From positions 62,001-126,000 of the forward strand of contig JANWJS010000026.1 of assembly GCA_025451845.1 (NCBI GenBank): a DNA stretch of 64,000 bases. Direction: 5' to 3'. Below the pieces are notes generated by a model, which worked only from the letters and a program-made list of their open reading frames with translations, had not been told where the DNA came from and did no database searches. The translations under genes were made by a program, and so were the position numbers. Shown one piece after another: positions 4,011 through 58,398 of this stretch. How positions within the stretch are numbered: the stretch's first letter is position 1; every line of letters begins with the position of its first letter. The DNA comes from Steroidobacteraceae bacterium. GTDB lineage: Bacteria > Pseudomonadota > Gammaproteobacteria > Steroidobacterales > Steroidobacteraceae.

Positions 4011-4082
4011 GAAAGCAAATAATGCAGCGGCCCAGGGCCGCTCCTGGGCCGCGGGGTCGAAAAATCAGGGGGTTGGCCGCGC
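4011..4082 (-). repeat. dispersed intergenic repeat, family A copy 1
   Basis: Read on the minus strand it gives ...TTTTTCGACCCCGCGGCCC, then a hairpin AGCGGCC-CTG-GGCCGCT (4026-4042), then a tail ending TTTGCTTTC. The same order is found at 51.8 kb and 56.5 kb. It sits between gspB and the kinase gene and could also act as a weak terminator or attenuator, although no U-tract follows the stem. Confidence 0.7.
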
Positions 4083-4113
4083 AACGCGGCGCAGCCGGCT
4101 TTCGGCCGATCAA

Positions 4114-14808: not shown

Positions 14809-15727
14809 AGCAAACTACGCTGCCGTAGGAGCGTTCGTACTCGGCGTGGCGCTGGCCGCGGCGCTCTTCGTCTACTGGTATTCGGGCACGCGCGTTCACC
14901 GCACGTACGACCGCTACGAGATCTATTTCAACGGCACCGTCAGCGGTCTGGAGCAAGGCGCAGCGGTGAGGTATCTCGGTGTGCGCGTCGGGCGGGTCGT
15001 GCAGATGCGCATCGATCCTCGCGATGCAGGACGGGTGGAAGTGATCGCGGCAATCGAATCCACGACGCCGATCTCGCCCCGCACCCTCGCGGAGCTCGAC
15101 CTGCAGGGCCTCACCGGCCTGCTCTATATCGACTTGCAGCAGTCCGCGCGGCCGGCGTCCCCGTCAGTGCCGAGCCTGCGATACCCGGTGATCCGCGCCG
15201 CGCCATCACAGTTCGACGTCTTCGTGGCGGGGCTTCCCCGGCTGTCCGCCGCTGCCGGCGGCGTGATCCAGCGTCTGAACCGGCTGTTGAGCGACCACAA
15301 CATCGAGGACATCGCGCAAAGCCTCGACAATATTTCGCAGGCGAGCCGCTCGTTGCCGGCAACGGTGCGGAGCGCCAACGAGCTGCTCGTCCAGCTGCGC
15401 AGCGCCACGGCCGAGCTGACCGCCACGGCCGGAAGCGCGCGCAATCTAATGGATACTGCGGGTCCGCAGATCGTCTCCACGGTGCGGCGGCTGAATACGA
15501 TGGCAGACAACCTGACGCAGGCCACGGATCAGCTCGACCAGATGATCGCGGAGAATCGCATCGACGTCCGCGCGTTCACCCACGCCAGCCTGCCCGAGAT
15601 CGAGAGCTTCGTGCGCGAGGGCCGGGCGGCCGCGCAGGACATCCGCCAGCTCTCCGAGAGCCTGCGCCAGAATCCGTCGCAGCTCTTGTACCAACCGGCT
15701 CCGGCGGGCGTGGAGGTGCCGCGGTGA
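14798..15727 (+). CDS. mlaD: MlaD-family (MCE) lipid-binding protein
   Basis: The 309-residue protein has one N-terminal membrane helix (AVGAFVLGVALAAALFVYWYS). It is followed by an MCE domain (about residues 40-115, with YEIYFNGTVSGLEQGAAVRYLGVRVGRV given here only in part as GLEQGAAVRYLGVRVG). A long helical periplasmic tail rich in Ser/Ala/Thr heptads (residues about 150-290) follows. MCE proteins form hexameric rings that carry lipid across the periplasm. The tail is longer than in E. coli MlaD and resembles those of MCE proteins that form needle-like tunnels. The ATG overlaps mlaF by 11 bases. Confidence 0.9.
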   Translation: MEREANYAAVGAFVLGVALAAALFVYWYSGTRVHRTYDRYEIYFNGTVSGLEQGAAVRYLGVRVGRVVQMRIDPRDAGRVEVIAAIESTTPISPRTLAELDLQGLTGLLYIDLQQSARPASPSVPSLRYPVIRAAPSQFDVFVAGLPRLSAAAGGVIQRLNRLLSDHNIEDIAQSLDNISQASRSLPATVRSANELLVQLRSATAELTATAGSARNLMDTAGPQIVSTVRRLNTMADNLTQATDQLDQMIAENRIDVRAFTHASLPEIESFVREGRAAAQDIRQLSESLRQNPSQLLYQPAPAGVEVPR

Positions 15728-16398
15728 ATGCACATCTGCGGCGCCTCGCGCCGATTCTCGTGGCCTTTGGGGCCGCCGGCTGCTCCAGCCTGTTGCACAG
15801 CAACGCACCGGCCGTGCAGCTCTACACGCTGAGGGGTGCTGTCGTGTCGGCAGAAGGCGCCGCTGACCCCCATCCGGCAATGGCCGCCTCGCTGCGCGTG
15901 GGGCATCCGCTTGCCGGCCCCGGCCTGGGCACCGCGCAGATCGTGCTGCTGCAGCCCGATCACCGCATGAACGTGTACGCGGCCAGTGCCTGGTCAGCGG
16001 ATGTGCCGGCGCTCGTCGGATCATTGGCCGCGCAGACCCTTCGCGCCTCTGGAGAGTGGAGGTCGGTCGAGGACGCCGAGAGCCCCTTCCCCTCGGCCTA
16101 CCTCCTGCAAATTTCCGTCAGACGCTTCGACGCCGACTACTCCGCCGGTACCGAGGTGCCGCCCACCATCCACGTGACACTCGATTGCACCTTGGGGATG
16201 GAGGACGGACGCACGATCCTTGCCAGCTTCGCAGCGGACGGTTCGGCGGCGGCGGGTGCCAACAGGCTGAGCGAGGTGGTGGCCGCGTTCCAGCGGGCAA
16301 CCGATCAGGCACTCGCGTCGATGTCACGACAGGCGATTGCTGCCGTGCCGGCGAGAGGGGTCCAGCGGGCGAAGGGCCGTTCCCTTCGCCCGCGGTAA
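15724..16398 (+). CDS. ABC-type transport auxiliary lipoprotein (PqiC/LetC-like)
   Basis: The 224-residue product has a lipoprotein signal with lipobox FGAAGC, so it should be anchored to the outer membrane. A domain with YTLRG near the start of the mature part and repeated beta strands follows. This matches the ABC-type transport auxiliary component family (PqiC is an example), which often ends operons encoding MCE transporters. It therefore probably replaces MlaA/MlaC as the outer-membrane end of this system. The GTG start overlaps the mlaD stop by four bases. Its last seven codons lie inside a repeat of family B, so the extreme C-terminus (RSLRPR) may be repeat-derived. Confidence 0.82.
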   Translation: MNAHLRRLAPILVAFGAAGCSSLLHSNAPAVQLYTLRGAVVSAEGAADPHPAMAASLRVGHPLAGPGLGTAQIVLLQPDHRMNVYAASAWSADVPALVGSLAAQTLRASGEWRSVEDAESPFPSAYLLQISVRRFDADYSAGTEVPPTIHVTLDCTLGMEDGRTILASFAADGSAAAGANRLSEVVAAFQRATDQALASMSRQAIAAVPARGVQRAKGRSLRPR

Positions 16399-16442
16399 CT
16401 GTGTAGGGTCTCGCTGAAAGCGCAGCCAGGCGACTGTCAGCC
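16365..16442 (-). repeat. dispersed repeat, family B, inverted copy with 12-bp hairpin
   Basis: In minus orientation this copies the unit found twice before fmt (33.6 kb), with about ten differences over 67 bases. It includes the stem GCGGGCGAAGGG (16365-16376) pairing with CCCTTCGCCCGC (16382-16393) across a five-base loop. It overlaps the end of the lipoprotein gene and reaches to 17 bases before rlmJ. The stem lies directly after the operon and might serve as its transcript end. Confidence 0.75.
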
Positions 16443-16458
16443 CAACAATGAGCGGGAA

Positions 16459-22731: not shown

Positions 22732-22740
22732 TCCATGGGC

Positions 22741-22844
22741 GCAAATCGCTCCGGCGATTTACGCGGCCCCGTCCCTGCACCGCCCCGTTACTCGGCCACC
22801 CCGCGGCCCGGAGAAGCGCCCCGGGGCCGTTCCTGGCTTGCTTC
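22741..22844 (+). repeat. dispersed intergenic repeat, family A copy 2
   Basis: A hairpin AAATCG-CTCCGG-CGATTT (22743-22760) is followed about 65 bases later by the tail GGGGCCGTTCCTGGCTTGCTTC. It occupies most of the 180-base gap between the HD-domain gene and the GGDEF/EAL gene. Confidence 0.65.
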
Positions 22845-22911
22845 GACCTCTCGGATGGTCTAAGGATAGGGCGCCGGTTAATATCAGGCTAACCGAAGCG
22901 ATTGGCCCCTA

Positions 22912-32694: not shown

Positions 32695-33055
32695 CTCCAC
32701 CCCTTCATGTATCGGCCCAAGGTCGGCTACGCCGCGTTGCTCGGCCCATCCTGGGCCTCTCGCCGCGTCGGGGGCCGACTTGCGTCGTCCAAAATCGCTC
32801 CAGACGATTTTGGGGCGAGCGCGGGCCTACCTATGACTCTGTCGATCGCGCGGCCCAGGGAACGGGCACTGGGCCGCTGACTCACTTGCTTTCGCACGCT
32901 GGGACCGGAGCTGCGACCAGCTTGAATGGGCGCGGTATAATCGCATGCCGGTATCGGGCGCATGGCGGCTTAATGTCAAGTTGTGCGCTGGATCACGGCC
33001 TAGCCTGCCCCTACGGGCCCCTTGAACCCTGGTTGCCTGCCGCAATCGAACCCAC
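32695..33055. other. 361-base divergent gap between the LysM gene and def
   Basis: It holds a family A repeat (32789-32893) and, nearer to def, a good TATAAT hexamer (32936-32941) that could be a -10 element for def, with no convincing -35. The remaining 115 bases before def contain no recognisable structure or gene. A short CGGCCCA...GGGCC direct/inverted patch lies at about 32743-32760. Confidence 0.5.
32789..32893 (+). repeat. dispersed intergenic repeat, family A copy 3
   Basis: It begins with a strong hairpin CCAAAATCG-CTCCAGA-CGATTTTGG (32789-32813) and ends with ACTGGGCCGCTGACTCACTT followed by GCTTTC. Spacing between hairpin and tail (about 60 bases) matches copies 2 and 5. Confidence 0.75.
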
Positions 33056-33595: not shown

Positions 33596-33600
33596 TGATC

Positions 33601-33666
33601 GGCTAAAAGTCGCCTGCGGCGCTTTGAGCGAGACCCTACACGGTTGCCGCGGGCGCAGGGAACGGC
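33601..33666 (+). repeat. family B repeat, first tandem unit (78-bp period)
   Basis: GGCTAAAAGTCGCCTGCGGC begins the unit and GCGCAGGGAACGGC ends it. The next unit at 33679 differs at only two of 66 positions. In this copy only the left arm of the B hairpin is present; the sequence after it (CTGTTTTTTGATTGG) is T-rich. Confidence 0.8.
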
Positions 33667-33678
33667 TGTTTTTTGATT

Positions 33679-33755
33679 GGCTCAAAGCCGCCTGCGGCGC
33701 TTTGAGCGAGACCCTACACGGTTGCCGCGGGCGCAGGGAACGGCCCTGCGCCCGC
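33679..33755 (+). repeat. family B repeat, second tandem unit with complete hairpin
   Basis: The 66-base unit is repeated at 33679-33744 and continues into the right arm of a hairpin: GCGGGCGCAGGG (33727-33738), loop AACGG, CCCTGCGCCCGC (33744-33755). The stem ends 14 bases before the fmt GTG, so it could affect fmt initiation. Confidence 0.8.
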
Positions 33756-33769
33756 TGCGCTCAATAGAC

Positions 33770-34747
33770 GTGCGCGTTGCATTCGCCGGCACGCCGGATT
33801 TCGCGGTGCCGGCACTGCAATCGCTGATGCGCTCGCTGCACCAGCTGGTCGGCGTACTGACGCAGCCCGACCGTCCCCGCGGCCGCGGGCAGCACCTGAC
33901 CCCCTCGCCGGTGAAAGCCGCCGTCGAGGGCGCAGTGCCTGTCGCGCAGCCGGCCAGTCTACGATCCCCTGAAGACCGGGCTACTCTCGCCGCCTGGCGC
34001 CCCGACGTGTTGGTCGTCGTGGCATATGGGCTCATCCTGCCGAAGCCTGTCCTCGAGATCCCGCGGCTCGGGTGTGTAAACGTCCACGCATCGCTGCTGC
34101 CCCGCTGGCGGGGTGCGGCGCCGGTCGAGCGCGCCCTGCTCGCGGGCGACGAGACCACCGGGGTGACTATCATGCGGATGGAGGAGGGACTCGATACCGG
34201 ACCGATCCTGCTGCAACGAGCGGTCGCGATCGGTCCGCGCGACACCGGCACCACTTTGCGCGCCACACTCGCCGACGAGGGCGCTGCGCTGCTGCTCGAG
34301 GCATTGCAGGGGCTCGGCGACGGCACTCTGCACCCGCGCCCACAGCCCCTCGAAGGTGTCACCTACGCGCGCAAGCTGGAAAAGCGTGAGGCGCCCATAG
34401 ACTGGAACCGCCCGGCGGTGCAGATCGAGCGGCAGGTGCGGGGGCTGCAACCTTGGCCTCTGGCGGAGACTAGCCTATTGGACCCACGGACCGGCGTGCC
34501 AGAGCGCCTGCTGGTCCATGCTGCCAGAGTGGTGCCCGGTGGCGGCGCAGCCGCACTGAGCGTTGCCGGTTGCATCGTGGAGACGGACGGGCGCCACGAG
34601 GCGGGCTATATCCGGGTGCAATGCGGTGACGGTTGCCTGGACCTGCTCGCCCTGCAGCGCCCCGGAGGGCAGCGCTTGCCAGCCGCGCTCTTCACCCGCG
34701 GACCCCGGGCGCTCGTAACCTCGACGGTGCTCGGTGGCATGAGTTGA
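33770..34747 (+). CDS. fmt: methionyl-tRNA formyltransferase
   Basis: The 325-residue enzyme transfers a formyl group from 10-formyl-THF to initiator Met-tRNA. It starts VRVAFAGTPDFAVPAL, contains NVHASLLPRWRGAAPVERAL (catalytic Asn-His-Asp region) and the C-terminal OB-like domain. The start is a GTG at 33770; the longer frame to 33677 is composed of repeat B and was rejected. The C-terminal part has an Arg-rich loop. The rsmB start overlaps its stop codon. Confidence 0.93.
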   Translation: MRVAFAGTPDFAVPALQSLMRSLHQLVGVLTQPDRPRGRGQHLTPSPVKAAVEGAVPVAQPASLRSPEDRATLAAWRPDVLVVVAYGLILPKPVLEIPRLGCVNVHASLLPRWRGAAPVERALLAGDETTGVTIMRMEEGLDTGPILLQRAVAIGPRDTGTTLRATLADEGAALLLEALQGLGDGTLHPRPQPLEGVTYARKLEKREAPIDWNRPAVQIERQVRGLQPWPLAETSLLDPRTGVPERLLVHAARVVPGGGAAALSVAGCIVETDGRHEAGYIRVQCGDGCLDLLALQRPGGQRLPAALFTRGPRALVTSTVLGGMS

Positions 34748-47031: not shown

Positions 47032-47108
47032 GCACACGGCTGTGCCCCGCCGCCGCAGGTGGCGCTTCATAGGAGGCACACGGCTGTGCCCCACCGCCGC
47101 AGGTGGCG
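47032..47108 (+). repeat. family C repeat, two tandem units (44-bp period)
   Basis: GCACACGGCTGTGCCCCGCC and the following GCCGCAGGTGGCG occur at 47032-47064 and again at 47076-47108 with one base different. GGCACA-CGGC-TGTGCC (47075-47090) forms a hairpin. They occupy the 205-base gap between the HNH gene and the exonuclease gene; nothing else is seen there. Confidence 0.65.
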
Positions 47109-47189
47109 GAGCCGCGGGCAAAAAACCGCGCTTTTTGGCCGCGGCGCGCTGGGCCGGGCAGGAGCCCGGATCCAGCGCATGTACACGTA

Positions 47190-49064: not shown

Positions 49065-49133
49065 AAGCAAGTGAATGAGCCGGTAAAAGCCACGCTTTTT
49101 GCCGGCGAGGTCGATAAAGTAACTGGGCTGCTG

Positions 49134-49167
49134 CTGAAGAGCGCCGCAGGCGACTCTCAACCAATCT
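49134..49167 (-). repeat. degenerate fragment of repeat family B
   Basis: About 27 of 35 bases (GAGCGCCGCAGGCGACT and CAACCAATC) match the tip of the family B unit in its inverted orientation. It lies in the 118-base gap between pntAA and pntAB. Confidence 0.35.
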
Positions 49168-50905: not shown

Positions 50906-51844
50906 GTGAGGAAGGTGCTTGGAATCGGCCTGGTCCTCGCGGCGGTTGCCGCCTCCCCGTGCCGTGCTCAGGATACGGCCAACAACCTGCCGCCTGCCGT
51001 GCAGGCGCTGCACGCCCATCTGGCATCGACACCCGATGCGATGCTCGCGAGCGCCCCCGAATCCGCGTGGCGTGCAATCGACCCCGACGACACCCTCTAC
51101 ATGAACCTTCCTCAGGGACGGGTGGTGATCGAGCTGGCGCCACAGTTCGCGCCCCGCTACGTGGCCAACATCAGGAAGCTGGTGCGGCAGGGCTTCTTCG
51201 ACGGCCTGCCCATCTTCCGCGTGCAGGACGACGCCGTGGCGGAATGGGGCGACCCGACCGGCCGCAAGTCGGTGGGTATGGCCAGGCGCATGGTGGCCGC
51301 GGAGTTCGAGCGGCCGGTGCGCGGGCTGCCGTTCACTGCTCTGCCGGATCCCGACACGTATGCGCCGCAAGTTGGATTCTCGGACGGCTTCCCGGCGGCT
51401 CGCGACCCCGTGTTCGGTCGGGCGTGGCTGGCCAACTGCTACGGCATGGTGGGCGCCGCGCGTGGCAACAACGTCGACAGCGGCGGCGGCACCGCCCTCT
51501 ACGCGGTAATCGGCGGCCCGCAGCGACAGTGGGACCGAAATACCACCATGATCGGGCGTGTCGTGGAAGGCATGCCGCTTCTCTCGACCCTGCCGCGAGG
51601 CCAGGGTCCCTTGGGCATGCATCGCGATCGCCACCGTTGGGTGCGCATCGAATCGGTGCAGATCGCCGCGGACTTGCCTCCCGCGAAGCGCACGGCGCTG
51701 GAGGCGCTGCGCACCGACACACCGACTTTCACCCAGTACGTGGAATCCCTGCGCAATCGCCGTGATCCCTGGTTCAAGGTGCCCGCCGGCCGCATCTCCG
51801 TCTGCTCGATTCCAATCCCCGTCAGGTCAAAAGTAAATACCTAA
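50906..51844 (+). CDS. peptidylprolyl isomerase, cyclophilin type, exported
   Basis: The product of about 312 residues has a signal peptide ([21 protein letters not shown]). A cyclophilin domain follows (about 60-220), with [42 protein letters not shown], and [25 protein letters not shown]. It would assist folding in the periplasm. The C-terminal 60 residues extend beyond the usual fold. The GTG at 50906 has GGAGG five bases upstream; GTG 50900 lies too close to that site. The final codons (about the last five) fall inside a family A repeat, so the C-terminus may be repeat-derived. Confidence 0.88.
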
Positions 51845-51995
51845 GCGGCCCAGGGCCGCTCCCTGGGCAGCGGGATGAATCCTGTCATAGGGCTGGCTGC
51901 GCACGTCGCCGGGAGCGATTACTCGGCGCACCCATGCGCCTCGGACCTGCGGCCCCGCCCTGGCGGGCGTTCCAAAATCGCTGCATGCGATTTTG
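51829..51995 (-). repeat. dispersed intergenic repeat, family A copy 4
   Basis: In minus orientation it starts with hairpin CAAAATCG-CTGCATG-CGATTTTG (51973-51995). GCGCAGCCAGCCC, GGCCC and the stem AGCGGCC-CAG-GGCCGCT (51844-51860) follow, and it ends TTTACTTTTGAC. It fills the gap between the cyclophilin and DUF3106 genes. Confidence 0.75.
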
Positions 51996-56424: not shown

Positions 56425-56523
56425 ACGCCCAAATCGCGCCCGGCGATTTCGTGCGCGCCAGCCCTGCGGCTTTTTCGAACCCGCAGTCCCGGGAGCGGCG
56501 CGGGCCGCTTAGTGGCTTGCTTT
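56425..56523 (+). repeat. dispersed intergenic repeat, family A copy 5
   Basis: Hairpin AAATCG-CGCCCGG-CGATTT (56431-56449) is followed by GCGCGCCAGCCCTGCGG, TTTTTCGAACCCGC and GCGGGCCGCTTAGTGGCTTG with final CTTTC. It aligns over about 60 bases with copies 1 and 4 in inverted orientation. TAAGAT downstream of its tail (56533-56538) might be a -10 for argS. Confidence 0.75.
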
Positions 56524-58336: not shown

Positions 58337-58372
58337 GGTGCCCCACATGACGCAGCGCCATCCCATGATCCA

Positions 58373-58398
58373 GGCACAGGGAGGTGCCCCGCCGCCGC
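58373..58398 (+). repeat. family C repeat, short copy
   Basis: GGCAC-AGGGAG-GTGCC (58373-58388) forms a five-base-pair hairpin, and CGCCGCCGC follows, as in copy 1. It is in the gap between argS and the SPOR gene. Confidence 0.4.

Follow-up and report, generated by a model that had tools for sequence, protein, structure and literature searches.

The repeats in front of fmt in a Steroidobacteraceae bacterium are probably copies of a genus-restricted, REP/BIME-like, non-autonomous intergenic DNA element that is kept palindromic by processes acting at the DNA level. We analysed a stretch of 64,000 nucleotides of this genome (contig JANWJS010000026.1, positions 62,001 to 126,000; hereafter, the window), the rest of the host genome and draft assemblies of its relatives.

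Repeat Units in the Window

Two directly repeated units lie between genes that we take, from the original prediction and from sequence, to be def and fmt. They form the near-perfect tandem that had been claimed: 2 of 66 bases differ within 33601-33666 between the units at a period of 78, and units 33596-33666 and 33674-33744 are 96% identical across 71 nt at the same period. From the end of unit 2 it is about 10 nt to the probable start codon of fmt (GTG at 33770, to judge from the reading frame). The third, inverted copy announced for 16.4 kb is also present, with 16363-16426 and 33694-33757 pairing at 91% over 64 nt, and with more differences and a changed length in its other hairpin. The hairpin arms quoted in the original prediction were found at 33727-33755 and 16365-16393, each with perfect 12-bp pairing. 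Absent from that prediction were a second hairpin at 33680-33707, which also covaries, and six further candidate copies in the window, the weakest with E = 0.0076. When the window was searched together with syntenic sequence of relatives, nine window matches were obtained at E up to 0.01 (Table 1).

The two complete window copies fold into both hairpins far below shuffled sequences (RNA folding, z = -5.0 and -3.4) and the family recurs genome-wide. Thus, the tandem and inverted repeats of the window are confirmed as real and are not due to chance.

The genes around 16.4 kb presumably encode a lipoprotein and an RlmJ-like protein, to judge from sequence. An ORF at 15724-16398 terminates inside the 16.4-kb element, which therefore provides the last codons and the stop codon of this ORF; relatives G034, G035 and G065 have no element there.

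Table 1. Two-hairpin elements of the window and their parts.
Feature	Position	Strand	Remarks
B-type element	4012..4113	-	102 bp; relative G079 has 12 nt there
Third A-type copy, inverted	16361..16447	-	69.4 bits
H2 of 16.4-kb copy	16365..16393	-	
B-type element	22733..22853	+	121 bp; clean empty site in G079; absent in G080; starts right behind a stop codon
B-type element	32782..32881	+	counterparts in G034, G065, G035; absent in G079
Unit 1, A-type element	33596..33673	+	directly after def stop codon; H2 3' arm missing; R2 48.2 bits
Unit 2, complete A-type element	33674..33759	+	R2 88.3 bits
Hairpin H1 of unit 2	33680..33707	+	folding, covariation
A-type linker GAGACCCTACAC of unit 2	33708..33719	+	also 33630-33641 in unit 1
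Hairpin H2 of unit 2	33727..33755	+	12 perfect pairs, loop AACGG
Element with C-like H2	49075..49167	-	G035 counterpart has B-like H2
B-type element	51841..51922	-	E 4e-4
B-type element, weak	56425..56512	+	E 0.0076

Types and Extent of the Family

The element consists of a 5' TNATTGGC, a hairpin (H1), a linker, a second hairpin (H2) and a 3' tail, and it measures about 85 nt in types A and C and about 120 nt in type B. Alignment revealed three subfamilies of this fixed layout with different linkers. The type A linker contains GAGACCCTACAC; type B has GGCCAGCC or GAGCGCGG and a tail with TTGCTTTCG behind H2; type C, seen in congeners, has an H2 of the kind CCGCCGGCAAAAGGCGCGACTTTTGCCGGC. H1 and H2 differ from each other in sequence and loop in all three types. 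The A linker is 98% identical between copies versus 69% for the H1 arms and 83% for the H2 arms, an invariance that is partly built in since the loci were gathered by a pattern containing the linker and a later script also required it. So far as it is not a product of copy collection, the near-invariant linker suggests sequence-specific recognition, a feature outside our preferred model.

BLAST with the def-fmt spacer retrieved 23 places in the host genome, and a covariance model of type A (R1) retrieved 41 at E up to 0.01. A model made from 71 copies of all three types (R2) retrieved 90 places, 6 of them within the window; both model lists include a few overlaps or partial matches, and the 90 places are probably an underestimate, as only 150 of the 5578 first-look candidates were scored. 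The genome thus holds many more than the three copies of the original prediction. Tandem arrays were found in L009, L011, L014 and L031, and alternating orientation was not seen. At 5934-6405 of L031 there are five tandem 97-bp units, four of which have identical model scores, suggesting recent growth of the array.

Within the genus, 34 of 58 genomes, host included, have R1 matches (E up to 0.001). In a sample of 157 genomes from the order, R2 had matches in 3, all of the host genus, and in none of the 55 other genera (1 of 56 genera positive). The exact type-A pattern occurs in 12 stretches of named genome records, all of them metagenome assemblies titled Gammaproteobacteria or Proteobacteria bacterium; one of the stretches has five 97-bp units in tandem. 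The same pattern had no match in viral contigs, and one A-type copy had no blastn match in plasmid and phage records. Rfam searches of the whole window at gathering scores gave no match; nine loci searched at E up to 1 gave one tRNA and three matches far below gathering scores. A keyword search of titles and abstract openings, mostly outside subscription journals, found no description of this family.

Placement Relative to Genes

Genes were called by a simple codon-usage ORF finder, so single gene borders may be wrong. We examined 72 of the 90 R2 places, leaving out the 17 weakest and one antisense overlap. Sixty-six were intergenic (some overlap an ORF end), two lay inside ORFs and four at contig or locus edges. 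The 66 classed places comprised 41 between unidirectional, 18 between convergent and 7 between divergent genes; among the unidirectional ones, 13 elements were in the orientation of the genes and 28 in the opposite one. Where the upstream gene was on the same strand, 14 of 31 elements started -3 to +3 nt from its stop codon. Uniform placement in free space expects 5.0, and none of 20,000 draws reached 14.

In E. coli, REPs close behind stop codons affect translation. Adjacency to stop codons is also what would be seen if the elements were functional cis-acting RNAs whose hairpins act in mRNA behind the stop, in 3'-end protection or termination, and whose RNA folding is selected. Such a role is argued against by the use of both orientations, opposite to the flanking genes in 28 of the 41 unidirectional cases, and by some elements that stand antisense beside tRNA genes. 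The placement matches the description of REPs given in PMC3733652.

The tRNA-adjacent elements lie on the strand opposite to the genes for tRNA-Val, tRNA-Trp and tRNA-Lys and begin at a distance of 3-9 nt from the 5' ends of these genes; they were observed both in the host and in G028 (L052, L059, L066 and L156, L158, L160).

Presence and Absence among Relatives

The window aligns with relatives over long stretches. At 22733-22853, the G079 sequence joins at the next base without a scar; at the same site G035 carries elements, G034 has an apparent remnant and G080 has none. The 16.4-kb copy is missing from three relatives, as described above, and at least one relative lacks the 32.8-kb copy, and likewise the def-fmt pair. 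Thirty def-fmt junctions of the genus were inspected, the host's among them. The A pair turned up in the host alone; at three (L118-L120), a C-like element lies right behind def, and no element was seen by eye at the other 26. This pattern fits both insertion and precise deletion. Copy number, location between genes, arrays and the variable presence of copies among relatives support the REP-like or mobile character put forward in the original prediction, while insertion and deletion are not separated by these data.

No consistent target-site duplication was seen by eye at 22.7 kb and the other sites examined, few of which are clean empty sites. A TA repeat at L221 was considered as a target duplication; neither 22.7 kb nor 4.0 kb shows it. 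These observations bear on the reading of the family as a MITE derived from an insertion sequence with a DDE transposase, terminal inverted repeats and target duplication. The two defined ends of the element and the clean empty site at 22.7 kb would suit such an origin. No clear terminal inverted repeats and no consistent duplication were apparent by eye at the sites examined, and we regard this origin as very improbable.

Folding and Covariation of the Hairpins

Five copies were folded and found to be stable (z from -3.4 to -5.8). Standard pairs make up 95.5% of the pair cells in the 71 copies, which come from several genomes; changes on both sides occur in 19 of 22 pairs, and there are 184 double-change cells versus a shuffled mean of 44.6 and 13-44 in slid controls. 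The host-locus matches (88, of which 81 are distinct, with a few antisense overlaps) gave 94.5% standard pairs, 20 of 22 pairs changed on both sides and 222 double-change cells versus 61.2 shuffled and 17-47 slid. Both alignments were fitted to the structure and are biased towards it. A MAFFT alignment (A1) was not structure-fitted, yet its structure was drawn from the same sequences; it contains 35 double-change cells versus 13.5, and 7 of its pairs have double changes, a number that 26 of 500 shuffles also reached. The compensatory changes in the arms reported in the original prediction are thus strongly borne out, and both stems covary.

Tolerance of G.U, a hallmark of RNA, is weakly above that of A.C. 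Symmetric, alignment-free extraction from 125 sequences gave 59 G.U versus 36 A.C overall, 22 versus 14 in H2 (123 H2) and 37 versus 22 in H1 (122 H1), in sets that contain a few antisense overlap matches. A strong G.U excess in H2 seen in a model-fitted alignment (32 versus 5) shrank to the above 22 versus 14, and since the asymmetry shrinks in this way we do not rely on it.

The original prediction also concluded that selection on RNA or cruciform structure is likely. The compensatory changes on which it was based stand; selection does not follow from them alone, since template switching also creates multibase compensatory changes (PMC8794818). The arms may be kept complementary either by selection for the folded form, as DNA for mobility or as RNA, or by template switching or exchange between copies.

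Change in Place at Matching Sites

The way in which the hairpins change was studied in 21 comparisons of matching sites, which are not independent because some use one host copy repeatedly. Left out were L229/L297 (opposite orientation), 22.7 kb (split G035 match), 32.8 kb vs G035 (weak match), the truncated second element of L059/L125, and L200/L262, L052/L239 and L241, L058/L246 and L209/L270. Of 453 lettered pair cells, 365 are unchanged, 47 are changed on one side and 41 on both. The one-sided changes leave 15 cells still paired and 32 paired in only one genome, and 36 of the 41 two-sided changes are paired in both genomes (5 are not). A transversion is contained in 24 of the 36 paired double changes, so these have no route through a single G.U step. 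Three comparisons (L059/L125, L230/L279 and 32.8 kb/L186) have one-sided changes only, with no paired double change, and look like decay.

Several sites differ by blocks. At 49.1 kb, H2 is of a different type in the host and in G035 (Table 1); H1 differs as a block at L064/L287, L075/L247 and L221/L253, and at L064 the first part of the linker differs as well. An H1 block difference is also seen at 32.8 kb between G034 and both G065 and G035, where pairing in G034 is incomplete, two doubly changed pairs not being paired in both. At the tRNA-Val and tRNA-Trp sites the host has A-type and G028 has C-type elements between conserved neighbours, which can be due to replacement in place or to repeated insertion. 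At one matching site (L229 1496-1571 and L297 1227-1319), the host and G035 elements are oppositely oriented.

Differences in whole blocks, together with the large number of double transversions, speak for a process at the DNA level. They are unexpected under stepwise selection through G.U pairs, as is the erratic presence of the elements between relatives if they serve as cis-acting RNAs, for which Rfam provided no match at gathering scores in the window either. Even with the stable folds, the strong covariation of both stems, the slight G.U excess and the stop-codon adjacency on its side, an RNA function of this kind appears unlikely to us as the explanation of the family.

Tentatively, one may go further and regard the hairpins as interchangeable cassettes, with the H1 apex or the whole H2 swapped at fixed sites for the hairpin of another subfamily and most of the linker, together with tail and flanks, kept. 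Concerted evolution of this kind might need no RAYT and proceed by copying templated by hairpins, either through intermolecular template switching or through single-strand annealing; we put this forward as possible, at less than even chances.

Search for an Associated Transposase and Tags

The original prediction had suggested looking for a nearby or chromosomal RAYT. Pfam model PF01797 was tried and rejected as a RAYT test since E. coli rayT falls below its threshold (E = 0.017). It was not found in the host and was found in 13 of 58 genus genomes; an R1 or R2 match (E below 0.01) accompanied 1 of 16 PF01797 loci, beside a truncated gene, and the proteins tested from G003 and G065 are IS200/IS605 TnpA (NF033573). 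The NCBIfam RAYT model NF047646, which detects E. coli rayT, was used instead. It had no match in the host genome and scored over the cut-off in one of the 58 genomes, G003, and thus in 1 of 34 element carriers; five other genomes gave matches below the cut-off, including carrier G005 with 51.5 vs 80 bits.

GTAG palindromes like GTAGGTTGGGGTGAGCTTGCGAACCCCAAC stand on both sides of the G003 RAYT gene; their sequence is unrelated to the two-hairpin family, and R2 with filters off found nothing better than E = 0.29 at this locus. The link to a RAYT was therefore not borne out: there is none in the host by NF047646, and the sole genus RAYT over the cut-off is accompanied by different REPs. As far as draft genomes show, the two-hairpin family is not tied to a RAYT. 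Next to the RAYT gene of G003 (L306, contig 44, 1222-2493), a 144-bp repeat occurs four times in an array; its GTAG REPs closely resemble the Coxiella burnetii REP in Table 1 of PMC2817692.

Tags were looked for in the linkers. GTAG is present in 3 of 81 host matches and 3 of 18 C-type copies. A GTAG link through the reverse complement, as it occurs in the A linker, was considered and rejected: only 14 of 81 host matches have it, and it does not adjoin the stem. CGTC is found in 8 of 18 C-type copies, mostly shortly before the H2 stem, and in 6 of 81 host matches.

One could suppose that the elements are a REPIN-type population mobilised by a RAYT that was lost from the lineage or missed by the assembly. 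Their placement and numbers are REP-like, the host genome is 97% and not 100% complete, and carriers G003 and G005 do have a RAYT match, the latter below the cut-off. With a RAYT over the cut-off in just one genome of the genus, where it is flanked by unrelated REPs that R2 does not recognise, and with so few linkers containing GTAG, we regard this supposition as quite improbable.

Likeness to Known Repeats

In placement, arrays, numbers and polymorphism, the family behaves as REP/BIME repeats do. PMC2817692, PMC3116915 and PMC3733652 describe GTAG REPs and REPINs associated with RAYTs as palindromes that are intergenic, numerous in a genome and close to ORF 3' ends, in unidirectional or convergent placement, with arrays, complementary stem changes and, sometimes, a stop codon provided by the repeat; all of this is shared by our elements. 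Unlike those repeats, the family has no conserved GTAG tag and no RAYT in the host and was seen in one genus only, and instead of the inverted REP pairs of REPINs it has two unlike hairpins in fixed order. Since tag, RAYT and inverted pair are lacking, we call the family REP-like and do not file it as REP.

CGTC REPs, as presented in PMC3733652, are REP-like repeats without an associated transposase, and CGTC occurs in some C-type linkers. They are characterised there by a tag that resembles CGTC and is unpaired, by stems of 8-9 bp and, for the most part, by inverted dimers, whereas the stems here are longer, the units are direct two-hairpin units and CGTC is not constant; type C may belong to the CGTC super-family. 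BIMEs, as described in PMC2817692, are likewise composite palindromic units of mosaic make-up that form tandem arrays. Their REPs alternate in orientation, whereas H1 and H2 are different sequences in one orientation. The template-switch hairpins of PMC8794818 share multi-base compensatory changes in both arms; they were studied in RNA genes, whereas here a dispersed repeat is concerned, with hairpin types that differ at matching sites.

A Proposed Model of Spread and Upkeep

In the DNA-level model that we prefer, copies would spread and be rewritten as single-stranded DNA hairpins. Spread would depend on a transposase, and no RAYT was found in the host genome; rewriting may take place when the template is switched or a short tract is converted between copies, either of which leaves the arms complementary. 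Their build-up behind stop codons would reflect either the minimal damage that the elements cause at such places or the location of the insertion site. Copies that are transcribed would form strong 3'-UTR hairpins, with a possible influence on mRNA ends that is probably incidental.

The CGTC families are an existing example of REP-like repeats that have no associated transposase. The family described here offers many matching sites in close relatives, which show directly whether an element is present or absent and how its hairpins differ in place. It also cautions against taking compensatory changes in the arms of a repeat, on their own, as proof that the RNA is functional.

A Second Repeated Hairpin Unit

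The window also contains another repeated hairpin unit, GCACACGGCTGTGCCCCGCCGCCGCAGGTGGCG, at 47032-47108, 47068-47178 and 58345-58398, two copies being 44 bp apart. It recurs in contigs of relatives (L178 and L180) at 86-91% identity, and near 19.5 and 31.4 kb G079 has stretches filled with sequence that looks similar. Perhaps this unit represents another repeat family.
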